This document shows, in pieces, positions 14,905-28,801 of a stretch of 64,000 bases of DNA. Source of the DNA: Hanstruepera marina (GTDB lineage: Bacteria; Bacteroidota; Bacteroidia; Flavobacteriales; Flavobacteriaceae); the NCBI RefSeq assembly GCF_019880635.1, contig NZ_JAINVX010000006.1:62001-126000 (forward strand), in the 5' to 3' direction. How positions within the stretch are numbered: position 1 is the first letter of the stretch; each line of letters begins with the position of its first letter. Both the position numbers and the translations under genes were made by a program. A model generated the notes under the pieces. It searched no databases and was not told the DNA's origin. It worked only from the letters and a program-made list of their open reading frames with translations.

Positions 14905-15360
14905 TTACTTAAGTATGTGTTCTTTTTGGTTATATATTTTTTTATTTGAAATCATGTTGTTTATAAGTTCAGCTACTTCATAAAAGTGATCGAGCTTATC
15001 TTGCGAAATATTCTTGCGAATGGCTTCATTAAATGTTAAAACTTTTTCTCTTGAATATGCACGTTTCTCGCGTCCAAATTCTGTTAAATGGATGATGACG
15101 CCACGACCATCTTCAGGATTTGGTTTACGTTCTATTAAACCTTTTTCTTCCATGGTCTTAAGTGTTCTTGAAAGGCTAGTCGCTTCCATTCCCATTTTTG
15201 GACCTAAAGAGGTAGATGGTGTACCATTATCAGGATCTATACTCAATAAAGCAAAGCCTGTTGCCATAGTAGTCTCGAATTGTGCAGCCTCTTCGTTGTA
15301 CATTTTATTTATGGCTAACCATGTGGTTCTGAAGACGTAATCAATGGTTTTATCCTTCAT
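14905..15360 (-). CDS. MarR family transcriptional regulator of the fad operon
   Basis: A 151-residue winged-helix regulator. The core SLSRTLKTMEEKGLIERKPNPEDGRGVIIHLTEFG (recognition helix and wing, with the DxR wing tip as DGRG) is typical of MarR. It is the first gene of the operon and lies directly downstream of a 24-bp palindrome, so autorepression together with fadNAE is likely. By analogy with fatty-acid-responsive regulators the ligand may be acyl-CoA; this is inference, and other fadN operons use TetR-type FadR instead. Confidence 0.9.
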   Translation of the reverse strand: MKDKTIDYVFRTTWLAINKMYNEEAAQFETTMATGFALLSIDPDNGTPSTSLGPKMGMEATSLSRTLKTMEEKGLIERKPNPEDGRGVIIHLTEFGREKRAYSREKVLTFNEAIRKNISQDKLDHFYEVAELINNMISNKKIYNQKEHILK

Positions 15361-17336: not shown

Positions 17337-18098
17337 TTATGTATCCATTAATGCGGACATGACTTTAATAAAATCTTCCTTTTTTGAACGTGAGATACTT
17401 ACGGAATCGTTATTGTTCATGATTATATAACCGCCATCAGATTTAATATATTTTTTCACTTCCTTTAAGTTTATAAGAAAGCTGTTATGAACACGCATAA
17501 AATCTTGTTCGAAGAGCAAATTTTCATATTCTTTTAAATGCTTGCTAACCAAAATAGTTTCTTTGTTTTTTAATATAAACTTGGTATAGGAACCTTCTGC
17601 TTTACAATAAAGAATGTTATTTACTTCAATAAATTCAAAACCATCAGAAGTTGCTAAACAAATCTTATTTAAAGTAGGTTTCCGTTGTTTGAGATTCAGC
17701 ATTAGTGTCTCTAATTGTTTTTTATAAACGTCTTGGTTTTTCTTTTTTCTTGCTTTTTCAACGGCATTTTGTAGTTCTTCTAAATCTATGGGTTTTAATA
17801 AATAATCTAAAGAGCTAAATTTAACAGCTTTAATGGCATATTGGTCGAAAGCTGTGGTGAATATAACATCGAATTGAATATTATTAAGTCGGTTTATGAC
17901 ATCAAAGCCAGTTCCTGTTTGTAATTCAATATCTAAAAATACCACATCAGGTTTTAATTGTGCTATTGTTGAAACCGCTTCTTCAACTGATTCGGCCAAT
18001 CCAACGATTTCAATATTTAAGCAAAACTCTTCTAACAGGTTTTTTAATGATTCTCTGCTGTGTTTTTCATCTTCAACTATAACTGCTCTTAATTCCAT
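17337..18098 (-). CDS. LytTR family response regulator
   Basis: A 253-residue two-component regulator. The receiver domain (1-120) has the acidic pair E9/D10, phosphoacceptor Asp56 in VVFLDIEL, Thr81-Thr82 and Lys102 in LLKP. The LytTR DNA-binding domain (about 150-250) has FIEVNNILYCKAEGSYTKF and DFMRVHNSFLINLKEV. It is 7 nt downstream of a LytS-like kinase gene and is the only output protein for two sensor genes. Family members bind pairs of short direct repeats two helical turns apart, which makes the repeats at 22332-22449 candidate targets. Confidence 0.93.
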   Translation of the reverse strand: MELRAVIVEDEKHSRESLKNLLEEFCLNIEIVGLAESVEEAVSTIAQLKPDVVFLDIELQTGTGFDVINRLNNIQFDVIFTTAFDQYAIKAVKFSSLDYLLKPIDLEELQNAVEKARKKKNQDVYKKQLETLMLNLKQRKPTLNKICLATSDGFEFIEVNNILYCKAEGSYTKFILKNKETILVSKHLKEYENLLFEQDFMRVHNSFLINLKEVKKYIKSDGGYIIMNNNDSVSISRSKKEDFIKVMSALMDT

Positions 18099-18105
18099 GT
18101 TTTCT

Positions 18106-19938
18106 TTAATAGTTAATTTTTATAATAACTCTTGTTCCAGCTGCTAAGTTATTGGCATCGTATTTATCAATTACTTCAATATTGCAGTCTGATTGGTTAT
18201 TGGTTTTTAAGCGTTCTTCAGTAACTTCTAATCCTCTAGATTTATTAGTATGCCGTTTGAATTTTTGAGCGGCCTCTCTTCCAATTCCATTGTCATCAAT
18301 TATACATTCTAGATAAGTTTGTTTATCGTTAAATTTTATTACTAATGATTTGTCTTTTGATTTTTTGTTTAGCAAGCCATGAATTATAGCATTTTCAATA
18401 AATGGTTGAATTATTAGCATGGGTATTTCAATAATATCTTGCTCTACTTTTGGAGCAATAATAATCTCGTATTTAAAAGAATTGTCAAAGCGTAATGCTT
18501 CTAATGCTAAATAGTCATTAATCATTTTTATCTCATCTGAAAGTACAATTCTTGATTCCATAGAGCTTTCCAGTATATTTCTTGTGAGTCTGCTAAATTT
18601 TGATAAATATTTTAATGCTCCCGTTTTATTATTGTCTGTTATAAAATGTTGTATGGAACTTAAAGCATTAAATATAAAATGTGGGTTTATTTGAGCCCGA
18701 AGCGCTTTGTTTTTGTTTCTAATAGCTTCTTCTTGATACCGTAATTTTTGCTTAAACTCTTCTTGAATTTTATAAGCTAATCCAGATGCGAAAATTAAAA
18801 CCTCTAGGGTAGATCCTGCAATCATATATCTTGCATCGCTAAAAAACAATAGAGCCAATGCACCAGCCATATAAAAGAAAGAACCGATTACAACAAAGTA
18901 AGCTAGTTTATTGACACTTTTCCAGATTAAATATATCATACCCACTAAACCAAAAACGGTCATTATGAGTTGCTCAAATCGTAATAGATATATATGACCA
19001 ATAAGATAGTTAAAACCAAAGAAAAAAGCATCTAGAATAATAAGAAACACTAATAGATAAGCGATAGCTTTTAAGGCTACATGTAGTCTTTTATAAGTTG
19101 TTTTAGTATTTAAATAATGGATGATGAATAATATGTAACACAGGTTTATAGCCATTTGCGAGATTTGGAAAAAGGCATAACTCAATAAACCATAAGAACC
19201 AAAGAAAACCTCATGTAGCTTAAATACCTCGGAGTTTAAATAGAGTAGCAAGAATAATACATACAACATGTAATATAAAAATTCTTGACGTTGGGAATAA
19301 ATATAAAAAGCTAAAGTTAAAAAGAACATGATGATACAAATTCCACTGAAAATATAATATGGAGCAAGCCGTTTTATATTTTCAGTGGAATAATAATATC
19401 TAGTTAAATGTTCTACATGAGTGGATGCAAATCCAATTTTCCAATTTGAAATGTTACTAATGTAGGCTGTACGCTTTAACTTTAAAATAAGGTATCGATT
19501 GTAGATTAAGTTTTCTGGTTTAAAAGGAATACCTGCACCATATAAAACAGATCTATCTTTTTCTGAAAATTCAAATCTTCCATATTTTTCTTCGGACAAA
19601 CCATTTTTTGTTTGCTTATAAAGCGTTGCATGTTCAAACTTTGGCATTTTTAAAAACCACAATGTATCTTTAGAAATTGTAGTTAAATGCTTTTCAAAAT
19701 CTATAAGCATCCAATAGGTGAGAGAAGGATGTGTTATTTCTTGTTTTAAAAGCGTAGAATTGAATATTGATAAATTTGATAGAACATCAGATATAGACAA
19801 TGTGTCTAGTTCTGTTTTATAAACTTCAAAATGTAAAGGTGTACTTTTTCTGTTAATTGAATTTTGAGCATAAATTAAGTTGCTTGTCAAAAAAAGAAAG
19901 CTAAAAAATAATGTAATAACAAAACTTTTTTTTATCAT
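18106..19938 (-). CDS. 7TMR-DISM sensor histidine kinase, LytS-like
   Basis: A 610-residue membrane sensor. It has a signal peptide, an extracytoplasmic 7TMR-DISM-type domain (about 28-180) and seven or so transmembrane helices at about 190-390. A LytS-type HisKA_7TM/His_kinase region starts with INPHFIFNALSSIQHF (His about 416). The ATP-binding part is intact, with NAIIHGL (N box), DDNGIG (G1, about 548) and SRGLEVTEERL (G2). It should sense an external, perhaps carbohydrate, signal and phosphorylate the neighbouring LytTR regulator. Its start codon directly follows the stop of the GAF-kinase gene, so the two are coupled. Confidence 0.9.
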   Translation of the reverse strand: MIKKSFVITLFFSFLFLTSNLIYAQNSINRKSTPLHFEVYKTELDTLSISDVLSNLSIFNSTLLKQEITHPSLTYWMLIDFEKHLTTISKDTLWFLKMPKFEHATLYKQTKNGLSEEKYGRFEFSEKDRSVLYGAGIPFKPENLIYNRYLILKLKRTAYISNISNWKIGFASTHVEHLTRYYYSTENIKRLAPYYIFSGICIIMFFLTLAFYIYSQRQEFLYYMLYVLFLLLYLNSEVFKLHEVFFGSYGLLSYAFFQISQMAINLCYILFIIHYLNTKTTYKRLHVALKAIAYLLVFLIILDAFFFGFNYLIGHIYLLRFEQLIMTVFGLVGMIYLIWKSVNKLAYFVVIGSFFYMAGALALLFFSDARYMIAGSTLEVLIFASGLAYKIQEEFKQKLRYQEEAIRNKNKALRAQINPHFIFNALSSIQHFITDNNKTGALKYLSKFSRLTRNILESSMESRIVLSDEIKMINDYLALEALRFDNSFKYEIIIAPKVEQDIIEIPMLIIQPFIENAIIHGLLNKKSKDKSLVIKFNDKQTYLECIIDDNGIGREAAQKFKRHTNKSRGLEVTEERLKTNNQSDCNIEVIDKYDANNLAAGTRVIIKINY

Positions 19939-21153
19939 TTAATTAATGATTGGTAAAGTAATTTTAATTGTATTCCCTACAATTTTATTCTTATTCCTTT
20001 TAAAAGTAATATGCTTTTTAATTCCATAGTTTTTACCCTTATTAAGTAACCGTATTTGATCCTGCCAATTCATGATTTTTTGACGATATTCTGGATTGTA
20101 TTTAGCTTCTGTAAGTTTAAGTGGATCGTGATTATAGTTTATAAGAACAACTACCGATTTTGAAGACATATTGAAATTAATCTCAATTTTTTGATTTTTA
20201 TGCTCATTTAAAATAGAATGTTCTATTAAGTTTTCCATTAAGGTTTGAATAAGAAAACTAGGTATTTTAACATCTAGATTGTCTTCTTTATTAGTTTTAA
20301 TTTCAAAGTTAATTTTGTCACTGTACCTTAATTTTTGAAGTTTAAGATACCATTTTAATAAATTAATTTCATCAAGAAGAGATACTGTTTCACTCTCGAT
20401 ATTTTTTAAATAGAAACGAATTAACTTACTAAATACAGATAAAAATTCTAGTGCGTCTTTTTTCTGATTTGAAGTAATAAAATATTGAATAGAGTTTAGC
20501 GCATTAAAGACAAAATGAGGATTTAATTGCGAATGCAAGACCTTTAGTTTTAAATCGATAAGTTGCTTTTGAATTTCTAAAGATTTTTTTTGTTCTTCCT
20601 GATATTTTTTTTGTGTCCTTAAACCTTTAAGCTTTATTGCCGTAATAGAAGACATGGTTAATAGCATATGCAAGTGATGTTCTGTAAAAAAGTTCTTTTC
20701 AGGATGTTCGCAATCTATTATACCAATTACTTGACCGTCTATAATTATAGGGACACAAACCTCAGACAATCTAAACTCGTCATCCATTCGGTATCTTTTA
20801 TCTTTAGAAGTGTCATGAATTAGCTCTGCATTGCCAGTTTGCGCTACGTGACCAACAATACCTGTTCCTAAAGGTCTATCAACAGGAGCATGAATTTCTA
20901 AATCTTTAGGGTTTTTTGGGCCATATGCTGCTTTTTGTAGCATAGTATCTCCAGTTTCATTAAGGAGGTATACTACACAATCTACAAAGCCTAATTTGGA
21001 AATACAGTTTTTAGCTAAGTCCCAAAGTATGGCTTCTTCATCATTAATATCAAGCAAAGACTCTGAAAAATACATAAGCACATCTGAAAACTTGTTTACA
21101 TCTGTTTCCGGATATAACTGTGAATTTTGTGTTATCTTCATTTTAGGCTTCAT
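19939..21153 (-). CDS. GAF domain LytS-like kinase with degenerate ATP-binding domain
   Basis: A protein of about 404 residues, cytoplasmic, with no membrane segment. The GAF domain (about 25-165) is followed by a short coiled coil and a LytS-type phosphoacceptor region LNPHFVFNALNSIQYF (His about 212). The ATP-binding region is eroded: the N box reads NLIEHSI, and where the intact neighbour has DNGIG this protein has INYNHDPLK. It may therefore not autophosphorylate and could act as an accessory sensor. I used the ATG at 21153; a TTG at 21159 and an ATG at 21141 are alternatives. It is the first gene of the sensor-sensor-regulator operon. Confidence 0.85.
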   Translation of the reverse strand: MKPKMKITQNSQLYPETDVNKFSDVLMYFSESLLDINDEEAILWDLAKNCISKLGFVDCVVYLLNETGDTMLQKAAYGPKNPKDLEIHAPVDRPLGTGIVGHVAQTGNAELIHDTSKDKRYRMDDEFRLSEVCVPIIIDGQVIGIIDCEHPEKNFFTEHHLHMLLTMSSITAIKLKGLRTQKKYQEEQKKSLEIQKQLIDLKLKVLHSQLNPHFVFNALNSIQYFITSNQKKDALEFLSVFSKLIRFYLKNIESETVSLLDEINLLKWYLKLQKLRYSDKINFEIKTNKEDNLDVKIPSFLIQTLMENLIEHSILNEHKNQKIEINFNMSSKSVVVLINYNHDPLKLTEAKYNPEYRQKIMNWQDQIRLLNKGKNYGIKKHITFKRNKNKIVGNTIKITLPIIN

Positions 21154-21231
21154 TGTCAATACAGAATTTGCTTCGATATTAAATTTAGGTCATTAAATTA
21201 CAATTAAAAAAATTGTTTTTAAAAATATAAT

Positions 21232-21261
21232 AGCGCAGTGGAATTCAAATACCACTGCGCT
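21232..21261 (-). terminator. Terminator after the lipoprotein gene
   Basis: AGCGCAGTGG pairs perfectly with CCACTGCGCT around a 10-nt loop. On the minus strand an AT-rich run ending in TTTTT follows. It separates the lipoprotein gene from the sensor operon. Confidence 0.8.
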
Positions 21262-21271
21262 TTGTAAAGTT

Positions 21272-22267
21272 TTATCGTGCATAGAATATATCTACATCAA
21301 CGAAGAATACGTTGCCTTGAATTTCCAAATCTTTAACGTACATAAGTCCGGCATTTCCATCGTAGGTCAAAAAACTGTAAATTTTCCCAATGTTAACACC
21401 TTCAGCTTTTTCTTCATGAGAATTAAAGGATGCATCTTCAAATAAATTCATTATTTCAAATGAATCGTAAATGTTTAGTTCATAAAACTCCTCAGCAGTC
21501 ATCGAAATTTCTTTGAATTTTGTAATGCTTTTTTCAGTTAAATTATCTGTAAGTTGAGTTTCTATGGTTATGTTAGGTGATGAAAAATATAACCCAGAAC
21601 CATCGTTCCAACTTAAAACCGCTACTACATTTTTATCTAGTGTACTAGTATTCATGCCATTTATCGTTTCCTTTTTAAGTTCATAATAATCAGCATAAAC
21701 ATAATATGGAAAATTATTGGCTGCACTTGGAGGGTTATCCGTCCTCATTGCTAGATATTCAAAATGCATAGGCATTTTTGTTTCAGTTTTAGCAAATGAT
21801 AAATTGTCAGCATTATTATTAATGTCTAATAACAAAGCTTTAAACTCAATAACATCATTTACATCATCTTCACTTAATATATAGTTTAAGTTGTAAGTAA
21901 ATGTATTGCTTCCTTCTACGTAGTTGGGATGAGTAATGTCTATGGTTTCATATTCTGAAGCACTTCCGTTTACAACTTTTTCAATAACTAATGTATCAAA
22001 ACCATCTGGCGCTGTTGCTTTTATGGTGTATTGTAAAGAACCAGTGCTTGGACTTCCAACAACACCATAGTTTGTACTTGTTTGTCCATTTAATAATGTA
22101 AGAGAAGGAAGAATAGCTTGTGGCTCAGAATTTTGAATGGGTTCATCATCTTTACTGCAGCTGGTTAATACAGTTGTAAGTCCTAATAAAATAAAGCTTA
22201 AAACAGCTAGATATTTAATTGAATGTCTTTTGCTTTTTAATTCGTGATTTTTTTTAATTCGTGTCAT
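21272..22267 (-). CDS. Hypothetical lipoprotein
   Basis: A 331-residue protein of unknown function. A basic N-terminus of about 17 residues is followed by a hydrophobic stretch ending in TSCSKDDE, a lipobox with Cys near residue 37 and the SKDD pattern typical of surface or outer-membrane lipoproteins in Bacteroidota. The rest is probably beta-rich and secreted; I recognise no domain. It is divergent from the T9SS/S74 protein pair, and both promoters are flanked by mirrored repeats, so it is probably co-regulated with them by the LytTR system encoded just downstream. Confidence 0.8.
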   Translation of the reverse strand: MTRIKKNHELKSKRHSIKYLAVLSFILLGLTTVLTSCSKDDEPIQNSEPQAILPSLTLLNGQTSTNYGVVGSPSTGSLQYTIKATAPDGFDTLVIEKVVNGSASEYETIDITHPNYVEGSNTFTYNLNYILSEDDVNDVIEFKALLLDINNNADNLSFAKTETKMPMHFEYLAMRTDNPPSAANNFPYYVYADYYELKKETINGMNTSTLDKNVVAVLSWNDGSGLYFSSPNITIETQLTDNLTEKSITKFKEISMTAEEFYELNIYDSFEIMNLFEDASFNSHEEKAEGVNIGKIYSFLTYDGNAGLMYVKDLEIQGNVFFVDVDIFYAR

Positions 22268-22295
22268 GATTTTTTTTGTTTATTGATTTATGACG

Positions 22296-22303
22296 CAAAC
22301 ATA
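22296..22303 (-). promoter_or_regulatory. -7 element for the lipoprotein gene
   Basis: Reads TATGTTTG on the minus strand, an exact TAnnTTTG match, 28 nt from the ATG. The nearest upstream AATTGA repeat starts exactly 28 nt further upstream (at 22332). Confidence 0.65.
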
Positions 22304-22331
22304 CAGGCACTTCTTTCTAGAAAAACTCCAT

Positions 22332-22365
22332 AATTGATAATTGGTATTCTTCAATTGACAAATGG
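22332..22365 (+). promoter_or_regulatory. Tandem repeats, 21-bp pitch (pair A-B), upstream of the lipoprotein promoter
   Basis: Two direct copies of about 13 bp, AATTGATAATTGG at 22332-22344 and AATTGACAAATGG at 22353-22365, start 21 bp apart. This two-turn spacing is typical of LytTR-family operators. The pair is the mirror image of the C-D pair. Confidence 0.65.
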
Positions 22366-22413
22366 TTTTAATAGCGTTTACAACTATGTTTTTTTACAAT
22401 TCTGGGTATAACT

Positions 22414-22449
22414 TGTCAATTATCAATTGGAAAATGTCATTCATCAATT
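22414..22449 (-). promoter_or_regulatory. Tandem repeats, 21-bp pitch (pair C-D), upstream of the T9SS gene promoter
   Basis: On the minus strand two copies, AATTGATAATTGACA starting at 22428 and AATTGATGAATGACA starting at 22449, lie 21 bp apart. The 22449 copy is 28 nt from the plus-strand -7 element at 22478, the same distance as in the opposite promoter. Confidence 0.65.
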
Positions 22450-22477
22450 AACAACAATTAGTAAGGTGATTAGATAA

Positions 22478-22485
22478 TAGATTTG
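22478..22485 (+). promoter_or_regulatory. -7 element for the T9SS/S74 gene pair
   Basis: Reads TAGATTTG, an exact TAnnTTTG match, 27 nt before the ATG at 22513. It overlaps a TTG at 22483 that would otherwise look like an in-frame start, which is one reason to place the start at 22513. Confidence 0.65.
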
Positions 22486-22512
22486 GTTTCAAATACAATT
22501 AATCAATTTATT

Positions 22513-23004
22513 ATGAAATCAATTTTACTATTTATCTGTGTGCTATTATTTGCAACGCATAGTAATGCACAAGACATTTCAAAACAAGTCATAGGGGCTT
22601 CAGGAGAAACCCTAACAGGTACATCTCATGTTTTAGCATTCACTGTAGGTGAATCTATAGTGGGCGAAATTCAGAACAATGCGACTTTAAGCCAAGGATT
22701 CTGGTCTATACTTCTAAACGAAGGAACTTTAAGTATAGATTATGAAGAGGAGATAATGGAGTATGTTCAAATATATCCTAATCCTGTAAGTGATTATTTA
22801 AATATAAATACTAGCAATAAGTTTAGCTCTAAAACAAGTATAAGCCTTTATGATTTGAATGGGAAACTACTCATAGTAAAGGAAATTAATACTAATATGG
22901 ATACAAGGTTAGATATGACTAAACTATCACATGGACTTTACTTTTTAACAATCAAGACTTTAGATAACAGATTTAATAACACAATAAAAATTATAAAACA
23001 ATAA
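22513..23004 (+). CDS. Small secreted protein with T9SS type A sorting domain
   Basis: A 163-residue protein with signal peptide (MKSILLFICVLLFATHSNAQ) and a C-terminal T9SS sorting domain: VQIYPNPVSDYLNI, then SLYDLNGKLL and LSHGLYFLTIKT. The mature part before it is only about 60 residues (DISKQVIGASGETLTG..., FTVGESIVGEI, LSQGFW), a pattern I have seen in small proteins next to tail-fibre-like genes in Bacteroidota; its function is unknown. It is 3 nt upstream of the S74 protein gene and surely co-transcribed. It should be exported through the outer membrane by the type IX machinery. Confidence 0.85.
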   Translation: MKSILLFICVLLFATHSNAQDISKQVIGASGETLTGTSHVLAFTVGESIVGEIQNNATLSQGFWSILLNEGTLSIDYEEEIMEYVQIYPNPVSDYLNINTSNKFSSKTSISLYDLNGKLLIVKEINTNMDTRLDMTKLSHGLYFLTIKTLDNRFNNTIKIIKQ

Positions 23005-23007
23005 ATC

Positions 23008-24861
23008 ATGAAAACTATTTTACCAATTTTAAAAATTATAATCTACATGCTTAATTTACTATTAAGCATAGGGATTTACGCTCAACAAGGAATTAATTAT
23101 CAAGGTGTAGCACGAGATGCTCAAGGCGATTTAATGATAGAAGTTGAAATAACATTAGATTTCAATATTAATGAAGCAACGCCGAATGGTACTACTGTAT
23201 ATGCAGAAAGCCATGTTACCAATACTGATGCAAATGGTGTGTTTTCTGTATTGATAGGAAACGGTTCTGCTACATTAAATCTTTTTGAAGATATTAATTG
23301 GGCATCACAACGTCATTTTTTGAATGTTTCATTACAAGGAGAAGAGGTAGGTACAACAGAATTTATGTCGGTACCATATAGTAAAGCTATAGGAAACTGG
23401 CAAGCTCATGGTAATGGCGTTACTACTAAAGGAACTGGAGGTTCCATTTATATTGGAGATAATGCAGGAGAGCTAGATAATTTAGATGATAACCATAATA
23501 TTGGAATAGGAGATAATACATTGGTAAACAATACCACAGGTGTTAGAAATATAGCATTTGGCGAGGAAGCCTTATATTCTAATGAAACTGGCACCAATAA
23601 TTTCGCTGCAGGTTACCAATCACTTCATACAAATACTCAAGGCTTGAGTAATGTCGCGATTGGTATATATTCACTTCATGAAAATAGAGATGGATTTGGT
23701 AATATTGGAATAGGAGGTTATACATTAACGAATAATACGATAGGTAGAATAAATATCGCTATAGGAGATAGATCTGGCTATCATAATACTACAGGGGAAA
23801 ATAATATTGCTATAGGAGAAGAAGCTTTATTTTTTAATACTACAGGGTCATCAAATATCGCCATTGGAGCATTTGCATTAAAGGATAATGTTGCGTCAGA
23901 TTATAATATTGCTATTGGAAGAAGAGCTCTTGAAAGCAATACGATGGGAGTGGATAATGTAGCTTTAGGTTATCTATCGTTGAGTTCTAGTGAGGAAGGT
24001 GGCGCCAATACTGCTATTGGCTCTGGATCTATGAGATACAAGGTTTCAGGCGATTTTAATACGGTTTTGGGTCATACTGCATTAAGGAACAATGCTACAG
24101 GATTCAATAATGTGGCTATTGGTTCTGCTGCTGGATTTTTTAATCAAGGCAGTGATAATATATTCCTCGGTACTGCAGCAGGATTAGAAGAGGAAGGAAG
24201 CAATAAACTATACATTGAAAATTCTTCGAGTGCTACACCATTAATTTATGGAGAGTTCGATAATGATATTATTGGATTCAACGCCAAAGTTGGTATCGGA
24301 ACACAAAGCCCAAATATGCCTCTACATATAACAACCCACAATGACGTGAGTTTAGGATTAGGATCAGGAACATTAGTTATAGGCGAAGAATTGGGGCAAA
24401 ATATAGCTATGGACCGAAATGAAATTCAAGCAAGAAATGCTGGTCTGGTTTCTGATCTTTATTTGCAAAATGAAGGTGGTAATGTAAGAATTGGTGGTGC
24501 AATTGTACAGGCTTCGGATAGACGACTAAAACGTGATATTGAAGATATATCATATGGTCTTTATGAGATTATCCAATTGCGTCCAACAGAGTATTTCTGG
24601 AAGGGTAGAGAACAAGAGTTTAAGTCATTAGGATTGATTGCGCAGGAAGTAGATAAAGTGATTAAAAATGTAGTTGATTATAGTAAAGAAGAAGATAAAT
24701 ACGGCGTAAACTACACCGAGTTAATTCCTGTGCTAATTAAGGCAATTCAGGAACAACAACTCATTATTGAAACACAGCAAAAGAGAAACAATAGACAGTC
24801 ACAAGAACTATCTGATTTAAATTCCAGAATTGAAATTATTGAATCAAAATTATTACAATAA
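23008..24861 (+). CDS. Surface fibre-like protein with YadA-head-type repeats and S74 intramolecular chaperone domain
   Basis: A 617-residue protein. The signal peptide ends at about residue 25 (GIYAQQ), followed by a beta domain (GINYQGVARDAQGDL, common in Bacteroidota tail-fibre-like proteins). Residues about 145-410 hold roughly a dozen repeats of the form N.AIG..AL..N..G.N, like the left-handed beta-roll of trimeric adhesin heads. The C-terminus (about 505-570) is a Peptidase_S74 domain: ASDRRLKRDI keeps the Ser and Lys used for self-cleavage in phage endosialidases, followed by the GLIAQEV signature, then a coiled coil (about 580-617) suited to trimerisation. No T9SS sorting domain is present. 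It is probably an adhesive trimeric fibre that folds through its chaperone domain. Confidence 0.85.
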   Translation: MKTILPILKIIIYMLNLLLSIGIYAQQGINYQGVARDAQGDLMIEVEITLDFNINEATPNGTTVYAESHVTNTDANGVFSVLIGNGSATLNLFEDINWASQRHFLNVSLQGEEVGTTEFMSVPYSKAIGNWQAHGNGVTTKGTGGSIYIGDNAGELDNLDDNHNIGIGDNTLVNNTTGVRNIAFGEEALYSNETGTNNFAAGYQSLHTNTQGLSNVAIGIYSLHENRDGFGNIGIGGYTLTNNTIGRINIAIGDRSGYHNTTGENNIAIGEEALFFNTTGSSNIAIGAFALKDNVASDYNIAIGRRALESNTMGVDNVALGYLSLSSSEEGGANTAIGSGSMRYKVSGDFNTVLGHTALRNNATGFNNVAIGSAAGFFNQGSDNIFLGTAAGLEEEGSNKLYIENSSSATPLIYGEFDNDIIGFNAKVGIGTQSPNMPLHITTHNDVSLGLGSGTLVIGEELGQNIAMDRNEIQARNAGLVSDLYLQNEGGNVRIGGAIVQASDRRLKRDIEDISYGLYEIIQLRPTEYFWKGREQEFKSLGLIAQEVDKVIKNVVDYSKEEDKYGVNYTELIPVLIKAIQEQQLIIETQQKRNNRQSQELSDLNSRIEIIESKLLQ

Positions 24862-25138: not shown

Positions 25139-28100
25139 TTATTTATTCTCAATCCATTTTCTAGCATTAACAAAGGCTTCCAGCCAAGGCGATACCTCGT
25201 CTTTTCTGCCTTTAGGGTAGTTAGCCCAGTTCCATTGGAAGGTAGAACGCTCAATATGCGGCATGGTTACTAAATGACGGCCTGTTTTATCACACATCAT
25301 GGCGGTGTTGAAATCTGAACCATTAGGGTTGTGCGGATAGCCTTCGTAACCGTATTTAGCTACAATGTGATACTTGTCTTCGGTATACTGTAAACTGAAT
25401 TTGCCTTCGCCATGCGAAATCCAAACCCCTAACGTGCTACCTGCTAATGATGATAACATTACAGAATTGTTTTCTTGAACTTTTACCGAAGTAAATGAAC
25501 TTTCGTGCTTATGCGAATCGTTATGAATCATTTTTCCATGTTCCTCATGGTCTGGATTAATAAGGTCTAACTCCATCCACAATTGACAACCATTACAAAT
25601 ACCAACAGACAAGGTGTCTTCTCTTTTAAAGAAGTTTTTAATCACTTCATTTGCTTTTTCATTATATTTAATGGCACCTGCCCAACCTTTTGCAGAACCC
25701 AAAACATCAGAGTTTGAGAAACCACCAACAGCACCCAAGAATTGAATGTCTTCTAGGGTTTCGCGCCCCGAGATTAAATCGGTCATGTGGACGTCTTTGA
25801 CATCAAAACCTGCTAGATACATGGCGTTTGCCATTTCTCGCTCACTATTACTGCCTTTTTCTCGTAGAATAGCTGCTTTAGGCCTTGGTTTGCTGTTATC
25901 TAATTCAGGAAGTTTTCCTGTAAAATGCATTGGGAATTCAAACTGTAGCGGTTGGTTTTTATAATTATCAAAACGGTCTTTGGCCAACCCGTTTGCTGTT
26001 TGTTTTTGGTCGAGTAGGAAAGAGGTTTTGTACCACATGTCGCGTAAGCGAGACACTGTCATGGTGAAAACATCGGTATCATTAATAACACTCAATACAT
26101 CAGCATTGGTAACTTTTCCTATGTTGAAGAACTCAATATTAGCTTCGTTAAATGCGGTTTCTACTGAATCATCTTTGGCTTGAATAACCAATCCTGCATT
26201 TTCAGCAAATAAAACTTTAAACGAATCTTTTTCGGCTAAAGCGGTGATATCTAATTCTGCGCCCAAATTATTATCAGCAAAACACATTTCAAGCAATGTT
26301 GTTATTAAACCGCCAGAAGCTACATCATGTCCCGCAACAATTTGTTCTTCAGTTATTAATTGTTGAATAGTGTTAAAAACTGTTTTTACATAATCGGTAC
26401 TTTGTACATTAGGTGTGGTATTGCCTATTTTGTTTAGTATTTGTGCAAACGAACTGCCACCTAATTCAAAGCTGTCTTGAGACAGATTGATATAGTAGAT
26501 ATCGCCAGCATTTTTTTGCAATACGGGCTCTACAACTTGATTGATATTATTGCAATTTGCTGCAGCTGATATAATAACAGTTCCAGGAGCAATGACATCT
26601 TCATTTGGGTATTTCTGTTTCATGGAAAGCGAATCCTTTCCGGTAGGGACATTGATACCTAAATCGATAGCATACTCTGATACAGCTTGGACTGCTTCGT
26701 ATAATCGAGCATCTTCACCTTCGTTTTTGCACGGCCACATCCAGTTTGCAGATAACGATACACTTTGTAATCCATCTTTTAAAGGAGCCCAAATAATGTT
26801 GGTTAACGCTTCGGTTATAGCATTTCTACTACCTGCTTTTGGGTCAATCAATCCAGAAATAGGAGCGTGACCAATACTTGTTGCAATACCTTCCTTGCCT
26901 TTGTAGTCTAAAGCCATTACTGCAACATTATTTAGCGGTAACTGTAATGGACCTGTACATTGTTGTTTAGCCACTTTTCCACCAACACATCTATCTACTT
27001 TATTGGTCAACCAATCTTTACAAGCTACAGCTTCCAGTTGTAAAAGTTGGTCTAAATAATCGTAGAATTTTGTTTTATCGTAATTGGTTTCAGCATAATT
27101 CCTATGTACAGTTTTATCATGCATGAAGGTTTTAGGTGAACTGCCAAACATATCATCCATACCTAAATCCATAGGTTTTTCTCCAGTGGTTTTTGATTCA
27201 AAAGTAAAACGATGGTTACCAGTAACATCACCAACAGTGTACATTGGAGAGCGTTCACGCTCTGCAATTTTTTGAAGTGTTTCAATATGTTTTTTGGCAA
27301 TAACTAATCCCATGCGCTCTTGCGATTCGTTGCCTATAATTTCTTTGGCAGACAATGTTGGGTCACCGACAGGCAATTTATCTAAATCGATATGGCCACC
27401 GGTTTCTTCAACCAATTCAGAAAGACAATTTAAATGACCACCAGCACCATGATCGTGAATAGAAACAATATAGTTTTCATCACTTTCTACCATACCGCGG
27501 ACTGCATTTGCAGCACGTTTTTGCATTTCAGGATTAGAACGTTGTACCGCATTTAGCTCGATTCCTGAAGAAAATTCACCAGTGTCGGCAGATGAAACCG
27601 CAGCACCACCCATACCAATACGATAATTTTCACCACCAAGAATAACCACTTTGTCGCCAACTTTTGGTGTATCTTTTAAAGCTTGATTGGCTTTTCCGTA
27701 GCCAATACCACCTGCTTGCATGATAACTTTATCAAAACCAAGTTTTCTAGCATCTTCTTCGTGCTCAAAAGTTAAAACCGAACCACAAATTAAGGGCTGA
27801 CCGAATTTGTTTCCAAAATCTGATGCACCATTACTGGCTTTTATTAATATATCCATTGGTGTTTGGTACAACCAAGGACGTTCTGCCATGGCCTGTTCCC
27901 AAGGTCTGTTTTCTTCCAGTCTTGAATAGGAAGTCATATACACAGCTGTTCCAGCCAAAGGAATAGAGCCTTTTCCTCCTGCTAATCTATCACGAATTTC
28001 ACCACCCGAACCTGTTGCAGCTCCATTAAAAGGTTCAACTGTTGTTGGAAAGTTATGGGTTTCGGCCTTTAAAGAAATTACAGATTCAAAATCTTCAGTT

Positions 28101-28801
28101 TGATAATATTCAGGAACATCAGCGCGTTTAGGTGCAAATTGTTCAACTTTTGGACCTTTTATAAAGGCTACATTATCTTTATAAGCTGAAACAATGTCGT
28201 TAGGGTTTTTGTTTGATGTTTCACGAATCATTTTAAATAATGAAACAGGCTTTTCTTCGCCATCGATTACAAAGGTGCCGTTAAAGATTTTATGACGACA
28301 GTGTTCGCTATTGACTTGAGAAAATCCAAATACTTCAGAATCGGTTAAGGGTCTTCCTATTTTTTTCGCAACACCTTCTAAATAGGTTATTTCCTCATCA
28401 CTTAAAGCCAAACCTTCCTGTTGGTTGTAAACCGAAATATCATTAATCTCAATGATAGGTTCTGGCTTAATGTTAATTGTGAAGGATTCTTGATTCAACC
28501 CATTAAACTTTTCTGAAATCATAGGGTCGTAACCTTTGAAGTCTTTACTGCACGATTCAAATTCTTCAATACGGATTATACCATCAATCCCCATGTTTTG
28601 GGTAATTTCAACAGCATTGGTACTCCAAGGTGTTATCATGGCAGCCCTTGGCCCAACAAAAAAAGCATCGATTGATGCTTGTTCTATTTTAGGTTGATTG
28701 CCAAATAACCATACAAGTTTAGTAATATTTTCAGTTGATAATTCTTTTGTTGCTTGAACAGCAAATACTTTACTGTTTTGGTTTCCGAAGAAGTGAATCA
28801 T
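25139..28801 (-). CDS. purL: Phosphoribosylformylglycinamidine synthase (large single-chain form)
   Basis: A 1220-residue enzyme of purine synthesis converting FGAR to FGAM with glutamine and ATP. The length fits the gamma-proteobacterial/eukaryotic-type PurL that fuses the synthase to its glutaminase. The synthase half has FSQVNSEHCRHKIFNG and LKAETHNFPTTVEPFNGAATGSGGEIRD near residues 155-290. The glutaminase carries the nucleophile Cys in GICNGCQLW (about 1070) and His/Glu in WISHGEGKF. It stands alone as a purine gene here, with its own promoter (TAAATTTG at 28834-28841) and terminator. Confidence 0.96.
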   Translation of the reverse strand: MIHFFGNQNSKVFAVQATKELSTENITKLVWLFGNQPKIEQASIDAFFVGPRAAMITPWSTNAVEITQNMGIDGIIRIEEFESCSKDFKGYDPMISEKFNGLNQESFTINIKPEPIIEINDISVYNQQEGLALSDEEITYLEGVAKKIGRPLTDSEVFGFSQVNSEHCRHKIFNGTFVIDGEEKPVSLFKMIRETSNKNPNDIVSAYKDNVAFIKGPKVEQFAPKRADVPEYYQTEDFESVISLKAETHNFPTTVEPFNGAATGSGGEIRDRLAGGKGSIPLAGTAVYMTSYSRLEENRPWEQAMAERPWLYQTPMDILIKASNGASDFGNKFGQPLICGSVLTFEHEEDARKLGFDKVIMQAGGIGYGKANQALKDTPKVGDKVVILGGENYRIGMGGAAVSSADTGEFSSGIELNAVQRSNPEMQKRAANAVRGMVESDENYIVSIHDHGAGGHLNCLSELVEETGGHIDLDKLPVGDPTLSAKEIIGNESQERMGLVIAKKHIETLQKIAERERSPMYTVGDVTGNHRFTFESKTTGEKPMDLGMDDMFGSSPKTFMHDKTVHRNYAETNYDKTKFYDYLDQLLQLEAVACKDWLTNKVDRCVGGKVAKQQCTGPLQLPLNNVAVMALDYKGKEGIATSIGHAPISGLIDPKAGSRNAITEALTNIIWAPLKDGLQSVSLSANWMWPCKNEGEDARLYEAVQAVSEYAIDLGINVPTGKDSLSMKQKYPNEDVIAPGTVIISAAANCNNINQVVEPVLQKNAGDIYYINLSQDSFELGGSSFAQILNKIGNTTPNVQSTDYVKTVFNTIQQLITEEQIVAGHDVASGGLITTLLEMCFADNNLGAELDITALAEKDSFKVLFAENAGLVIQAKDDSVETAFNEANIEFFNIGKVTNADVLSVINDTDVFTMTVSRLRDMWYKTSFLLDQKQTANGLAKDRFDNYKNQPLQFEFPMHFTGKLPELDNSKPRPKAAILREKGSNSEREMANAMYLAGFDVKDVHMTDLISGRETLEDIQFLGAVGGFSNSDVLGSAKGWAGAIKYNEKANEVIKNFFKREDTLSVGICNGCQLWMELDLINPDHEEHGKMIHNDSHKHESSFTSVKVQENNSVMLSSLAGSTLGVWISHGEGKFSLQYTEDKYHIVAKYGYEGYPHNPNGSDFNTAMMCDKTGRHLVTMPHIERSTFQWNWANYPKGRKDEVSPWLEAFVNARKWIENK

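Follow-up and report, generated by a model that had tools for sequence, protein, structure and literature searches.

Two back-to-back pairs of 21-bp-pitch repeats as predicted activator operators of a BtsR-like LytTR system between flavobacterial surface-protein genes

The locus lies in a 64-kb stretch of DNA (the window) and consists of a minus-strand series encoding a LytTR response regulator, two sensor kinases and a lipoprotein, facing two plus-strand genes for a T9SS protein and an S74 fibre-like protein. The genes, and a hairpin between two of them, are as follows.

17337 to 18098, minus strand: response regulator with receiver and LytTR domains, the proposed ligand of all four half-sites described below
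18106 to 19938, minus strand: sensor kinase with 7TMR-DISM and His_kinase domains, by domain match
19939 to 21159, minus strand: sensor kinase with GAF and His_kinase (LytS-type) domains, by domain match
21232 to 21261, minus strand: terminator-like hairpin, AGCGCAGTGG/CCACTGCGCT, with a T-rich stretch after it, separating the lipoprotein gene from the kinase genes, seen by eye
21272 to 22267, minus strand: 331-aa lipoprotein, first putative target, with a lipobox-like LTSCSK seen by eye and no Pfam or NCBIfam family
22513 to 23004, plus strand: short protein with a T9SS type A sorting domain and, by eye, a signal-peptide-like start, first gene of the second putative target
23008 to 24861, plus strand: 617-aa fibre-like protein with a C-terminal Peptidase_S74 chaperone domain, second gene of the second putative target

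Both domains of the regulator scored above their cut-offs (Response_reg, 72.4 bits; LytTR, 59.8 bits), and the two linked LytS-type kinases matched His_kinase PF06580 at 77.5 and 77.7 bits. The kinases are probably transcribed apart from the lipoprotein gene. An earlier claim that the LytTR protein is the only regulator nearby does not hold, as a MarR-type gene lies at 14905-15360 and the genome contains 17 LytTR domains. For the T9SS protein, we discarded a listed TTG start at 22483, which falls inside the -7 box of the promoter, and take the ATG at 22513 as the likely start. The S74 protein (23008-24861) contains many NxAIGxxAL-type repeats and matched the NCBIfam mosaic adhesive trimer family weakly (26.7 bits, with a cut-off of 60); its sequence suggests a trimeric fibre. 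The purL gene is found in the neighbourhood, at 25139-28801 in the window and also near the regulator in 9 of 80 related loci (the best 80 of 299), namely L058-L061, L065, L066, L094, L112 and L121.

The intergenic region (22267-22513), with the lipoprotein gene on one side and the T9SS/S74 genes on the other, contains two pairs of half-sites, each followed by a -7 element.

22296 to 22303, minus strand: -7 element of the lipoprotein promoter, TATGTTTG, 28 nt (22304-22331) from the proximal half-site
22332 to 22345, minus strand: proximal half-site of the lipoprotein promoter, ACCAATTATCAATT, spaced 21 bp from its distal partner
22353 to 22366, minus strand: distal half-site of the lipoprotein promoter, ACCATTTGTCAATT, pair score 33.1, kept in L058
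22415 to 22428, plus strand: distal half-site of the T9SS/S74 promoter, GTCAATTATCAATT, pair score 30.6
22436 to 22449, plus strand: proximal half-site of the T9SS/S74 promoter, GTCATTCATCAATT, spaced 21 bp from its distal partner
22478 to 22485, plus strand: -7 element of the T9SS/S74 promoter, TAGATTTG, 28 nt (22450-22477) from the proximal half-site

Reading towards the lipoprotein gene, the order is ACCATTTGTCAATT-N7-ACCAATTATCAATT, 28 nt and then TATGTTTG; reading towards the T9SS gene, it is GTCAATTATCAATT-N7-GTCATTCATCAATT, 28 nt and then TAGATTTG, and the pitch is exactly 21 bp in both. The half-sites follow a 14-bp consensus, nnCATYYRTCAATT, and both pairs are arranged head-to-tail and oriented towards their own promoter. 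The copies as framed in the preliminary description read AATTGATAATTGG at 22332 and AATTGACAAATGG at 22353 on the plus strand and, on the minus strand, AATTGATAATTGA from 22428 and AATTGATGAATGA from 22449, with one and two mismatches, respectively, to the consensus given there. When we re-read the two direct pairs from the sequence, the repeat coordinates and the 21-bp pitch proved right, and TAnnTTTG boxes were borne out on both sides at exactly 28 nt from the outer copies. The arrangement had also been called mirror-symmetric: there are indeed two opposed pairs, but they are inverted (strand-symmetric) rather than mirrored. The exactness of this symmetry, which had been offered as evidence against chance, adds none, because two inverted pairs of equal pitch always have one common centre.

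These pairs stand out in both the window and the genome. With a matrix trained without L058, a near-identical relative, they scored 32.6 and 29.9, the third-best pair in the 64-kb window scored 8.9, and the maximum pair score in 300 dinucleotide shuffles was 21.9. Single repeat copies with at most two mismatches were not significantly enriched in the window (26 found, 20.0 expected). No other zero-mismatch pairs exist in the 3.28-Mb genome, where five further pairs had one or two mismatches and the pattern read backwards gave two matches. Searching this genome for a larger regulon returned weak matches only, with no further strong pair, and no pair was found within 1.5 kb of any of the 16 other LytTR genes. 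No strong pair precedes the kinase and regulator genes of the window's genome either, which therefore argues against direct autoregulation there.

A motif search in related genomes, suggested as a check in the preliminary description, revealed that the pairs recur beside orthologues of this regulator. We collected 80 loci around relatives of the regulator (the best 80 of 299) and chose as the orthologue set the 43 loci with at least 56% identity to the window regulator (L058-L098, L101 and L127); some identical loci carry two identifiers (L040 = L058, L054 = L063, L055 = L069, L056 = L061 and L066 = L220). A leave-one-locus-out matrix scan of the 43 orthologue loci detected 63 pairs at 21 bp and zero to three at any of the remaining spacings between 14 and 35 bp. 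Scanning for the plain core CAWYYRTCAATT, with long loci covered to no more than 10.9 kb from their start, gave the same picture: with up to one mismatch per copy there were 17 pairs at 21 bp, two at 42 bp and none elsewhere between 12 and 63 bp, with none for the reversed core, and when up to two mismatches were allowed the count rose to 41 at 21 bp, no other spacing in that range exceeding two pairs. At this looser setting, neither the reversed core in the orthologue loci nor the core in 37 other LytTR loci yielded a pair at 21 bp.

The gene content of these loci was less constant. Among the five genomes of the genus, including the window's own, only G001 also has the lipoprotein together with a protein closely related to the T9SS protein over its whole length, and its region is approximately 96% identical to that of the window and hence little informative. 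Lipoprotein matches at E 0.001 or better occurred in 15 of 397 family genomes; the clear ones beyond the window and G001 were in G145, G198 and G291 (44, 39 and 35% identity; regulator loci L063, L069 and L061). The kinases and the regulator are kept in all three, a clear 21-bp pair lies upstream of the lipoprotein gene in G198 and G291, and the divergent T9SS/S74 genes are kept as well in G145. The full gene set was found in L059 and L060, from a named genome collection, and L218 (G401) was added by a second family draw of 393 genomes, which contributed three more regulator genomes (G401, G411 and G456, the last being the L066 locus). The preliminary description had expected the repeats to accompany the gene pair wherever relatives keep it, and both pairs are present in L058, L059, L218 and L060. 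Both are also present in L062, where a kinase gene takes the place of the lipoprotein gene. In L063/L054, the T9SS-side pair had a low score of 14.0 and the lipoprotein-side pair, located by eye, scored 10.8, below thresholds; read in register, the two pairs of G145 (L063) are followed after 28 nt by TAGTTTTG and TACGTTTG. In this Ichthyenterobacterium locus, the sites of three promoters read ATCAAA, by eye, where others have TCAATT.

L054, 7937 to 8065; L063, 5661 and 11775, both minus strand: Ichthyenterobacterium ATCAAA sites, by eye

Such a concerted shift of sites suggests, at the level of sequence, an altered specificity of the regulator.

We consider it very likely that a single BtsR-like LytTR system works through two activator modules in this region, one serving the lipoprotein gene and the other the T9SS/S74 pair. 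The LytTR response regulator from 17337-18098 would use each pair of half-sites as its operator, an arrangement that would place two regulator molecules on the same face of the helix, 21 bp being two helical turns. Bound just upstream of a TAnnTTTG promoter that does not have a TTG -33 element, the regulators would help RNA polymerase to start, and the intergenic region would amount to two back-to-back activator modules, for the lipoprotein and for the T9SS-protein/S74-fibre pair. On receiving a signal, the two linked sensor kinases would phosphorylate the regulator and both modules would fire. Binding, phosphorylation, and activation rather than repression are what we infer.

The distance between the two pairs bears on whether these modules act alone or jointly. 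The divergent pairs are separated by 48 bp in both the window and L058, by 28 bp in L059 and L218 (the G401 locus), by 49 bp in L060, by 59 bp in L062 and, with the lipoprotein side read in the register of the matrix, by 59 bp in L063/L054. The gap varies among the five lineages while the pitch and the promoter distance stay fixed, and each half can therefore be read as a module of its own. With 10.5 bp per turn, the five gaps nevertheless fall in the same helical phase (P = 0.0005 relative to uniform gaps of 20-70 bp; P = 0.005 with the period left free between 8 and 13 bp), in a test with n = 5 that was devised after the gaps had been seen, and in which four of the lineages share gene-pair ancestry. 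This phasing hints that the two halves may also act together. It is possible, if rather doubtful, that they form a joint operator, with looping or a common complex bringing regulators on both pairs into contact across the gap, and with the two promoters switched as one; such an operator would be a stronger form of the two-module explanation rather than its opposite. The divergent layout in five lineages and the common phase of the gaps favour such coupling, whereas the small sample, the kinship of four lineages and the setting of the test after the data weaken it, as do the many single, non-divergent pairs (L061, L064, L065, L094 and others).

The sign of regulation is suggested by the promoters. 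According to PMC6847099 and PMC9723704, promoters of Bacteroidota combine a -33 TTTG with a -7 TAnnTTTG. Both window promoters have the sigma-A -7 box TAnnTTTG and neither has the -33 TTTG element; by reading, their two 28-nt spacers do not contain a TTG -33 element. A TTG 17-22 nt upstream of the -7 box was found in none of 33 promoters of related loci, with 2.7 expected (P = 0.05, marginal). The 28-nt distance to the -7 box was also found in relatives of the window locus: among 50 distinct pairs, TAnnTTT starts 28 nt after the second half-site in 21, at 27 nt in 4 and elsewhere in 3. TAnnTTT was absent at 27-28 nt in 30 of the 63 pairs, 25 of which belong to the Flagellimonas/Allomuricauda group, where another promoter form may be in use; a few of the 30 are outer pairs of triple arrays. 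The natural reading of the window's layout is that an upstream-bound activator replaces the absent -33 element. Alternatively, the same regulator on the same operators could repress both promoters, or repress one and activate the other, as geometry alone does not give the sign. We regard this as improbable, as the sites lie upstream of the core promoter and not over it, and the rigid 28 nt and the missing -33 TTG are the layout of an activator.

The distribution of the motif argues for this regulator, rather than some other factor, as the ligand. A pair was present in 34 of the 43 orthologue loci but in only 2 of the 37 more distant LytTR loci among the best 80 of 299 (Fisher P 6e-12; related genera are not independent, so P values overstate). 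The remaining 9 of the 43 had no pair above threshold; one of them, L063, has the ATCAAA variant, and L080 and L083 extend just 2.9 and 1.2 kb ahead of the regulator. In a phylogeny of the 80 regulators, 37 of the 50 rows on one side of a branch (SH-aLRT 99) carried the motif label and 0 of the 30 on the other, and the label required 8 changes compared with 26.9 in shuffles; the label of L063 was set by hand, and those of L100 and L104 by the motif scan. In L062 (Flavobacterium sp. AS60), the GAF-kinase gene itself is preceded by a pair at a distance of 54 nt, and in L092 a pair lies upstream of the regulator gene. Conversely, S74 relatives located away from such a regulator had no pair in four loci (L212-L214 and L217), examined with 1.5-kb flanks that may miss promoters.

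Genome-wide presence or absence of a degenerate form of the pattern was tried as a test and dropped as too noisy in favour of nearness to the regulator: this form matched 187 of 397 genomes, of which 176 lack the regulator, with heptad arrays accounting for some of the matches, and it matched 11 of 13 regulator genomes. In the 13 regulator genomes, 15 of 56 pattern matches, counted by eye, were within 10 kb of the regulator gene, where 0.34 would be expected, and the pattern read backwards gave 9 matches in all. The first form of the motif was drawn from the window, G145, G198 and G291, and G001 is nearly identical to the window; with these five left out, 8 of 39 matches were near the regulator, with approximately 0.23 expected (summed by hand). 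It is quite improbable that another, unlinked transcription factor binds the repeats and that the nearby LytTR gene is incidental. Away from the regulator lie 25 of 39 pattern matches with at most three mismatches in 12 regulator genomes (G387 excluded), as an unlinked factor would have it, but the pairs cluster beside this regulator and not beside other LytTR genes, their pitch is that of LytTR sites, and the target genes vary by lineage while the regulator is constant, in loci that were collected by regulator. The anatomy of the pairs, their conservation and their linkage to the regulator clade can be read directly from the loci. The assignment of the repeats to the LytTR protein, made in the preliminary description, draws support from the 21-bp pitch, the 28-nt distance, the linkage to orthologues, the tree and the lack of pairs at the 16 other LytTR genes.

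It is hardly credible that the repeats lack a regulatory role and are left over from simple heptad arrays, (TCAATTA)n, for which a 21-bp pitch would span three periods: such arrays match the pattern in several family genomes, but the leave-one-out counts were 3 at 14 bp and 1 at 28 bp compared with 63 at 21 bp, the distance from pair to -7 box is fixed and no heptad array was seen in the intergenic region. Heptad arrays that mimic the 21-bp pitch, for example (CAATTAG)n and (CAACTAT)n, occur in G257, G027, G207, G269, G320 and others.

What the pairs precede differs among lineages. In L064-L066, L069, L094, L219, L221, L222 and L233, it is a secreted-looking protein of the PPxNDLIENAI type, and the one such protein tested, from L065, has a T9SS sorting domain. 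Other genes found after pairs encode an OmpA-like protein (L072, by eye), a CPBP/Rce1-like membrane protein (L063/L054) and a 220-aa protein with no Pfam match. By eye, most targets in related loci look exported. In the Aquimarina loci L067, L068, L070, L071 and L077, a pair lies upstream of peptides of 60-62 aa, 0.1-2.1 kb downstream of the regulator. These peptides start with MLNNILNLENVKKIDKKQQ or nearly so, contain GG and resemble double-glycine leader peptides; the one tested, from L067, had no Pfam or NCBIfam match. A good operator with a -7 box at 2318-2352 of L060 (minus strand) faces the 3' end of convergent purL, with no ORF of at least 60 aa starting nearby, and may drive a small RNA. 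G387 (L224-L232), which from the similarity of its regulator we guess to be Flagellimonas-like, holds 17 of the 56 operator-like pairs with at most three mismatches, spread over three contigs; 12 of the 17 lie within the fetched stretches, several, by eye, before lipoprotein-like or outer-membrane-like genes. This suggests a wider regulon in that lineage. In L101, an outer-membrane-like reading frame from 8821 onward continues into the receiver domain of the regulator, through either a deletion or an assembly fusion.

A broader reading, which we put forward only tentatively, is that a BtsR-like LytTR clade, found in Flavobacteriaceae and extending to Fulvivirgaceae and other Cytophagales-related lineages, specifies a regulon for surface display that comprises lipoproteins, T9SS-sorted proteins, S74 fibres, outer-membrane proteins and leader peptides. 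A single 21-bp-pitch operator, replacing the -33 element at 28 nt from the -7 box, would mark this regulon, and divergent operators would be kept in helical phase with one complex driving both promoters.

LytTR sites consist of two repeats of 9-11 nt with spacers of 11-13 nt and no common consensus, a rule that the window operators follow at their 21-bp pitch, and in the case of YpdB the bound sequence is a direct repeat of GGCATTTCAT, whose two sites are occupied one after the other and cooperatively (both from PMC4847170). The E. coli YpdA/YpdB (PyrS/PyrR) system, acting at the yhjX promoter, is similar to the present one in combining a LytS/LytTR system with a direct-repeat operator, and some half-sites in our related loci start with GGCATTYRT, to be compared with GGCATTTCAT. 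The YpdB repeats likewise have a 21-bp pitch. The systems differ in that the consensus here extends to RTCAATT, the promoter is a Bacteroidota TAnnTTTG promoter, two kinases are linked, and the targets are surface proteins rather than a transporter.

The best NCBIfam match of the regulator was BtsR, over nearly its full length (124.2 bits, E 5e-36, below the cut-off of 246); a PDB sequence search returned mostly receiver-domain matches. In E. coli, the BtsR site is ACC[GA]CT[CT]A with a 13-nt spacer, which gives the same pitch as here. BtsS has an input of 5TMR_LYT plus GAF, as stated in PMC10653868, whereas the kinases here have GAF alone or 7TMR-DISM, with no 5TMR_LYT match in either. The Aquimarina pairs before GG-leader-like peptides, in five loci, bring to mind Gram-positive peptide systems. 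Gram-positive LytTR regulators of the AgrA/ComE/PlnC type recognize a direct repeat upstream of the promoter whose two copies are two helical turns apart; their consensus, phylum and kinases all differ from those described here.

We found no LytTR operator of this kind described for Bacteroidota or Flavobacteriaceae in a literature of mostly non-subscription full texts, nor in the accessible parts of PMC5395568, PMC10197871, PMC10057207 and PMC11237479. The pairs described here would link one pair of sensors with genes for surface proteins of marine flavobacteria, both lipoproteins and T9SS-exported ones, which makes a signal-driven switch of surface proteins directly testable, and the phased gaps do the same for the coupling of divergent promoters. 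Together, these comparisons place the finding as a further set of predicted LytTR operators with a code that is unusually sharp and transferable for its group, defined by sequence, pitch, orientation and promoter distance closely enough for computational target prediction and for tests at the bench.
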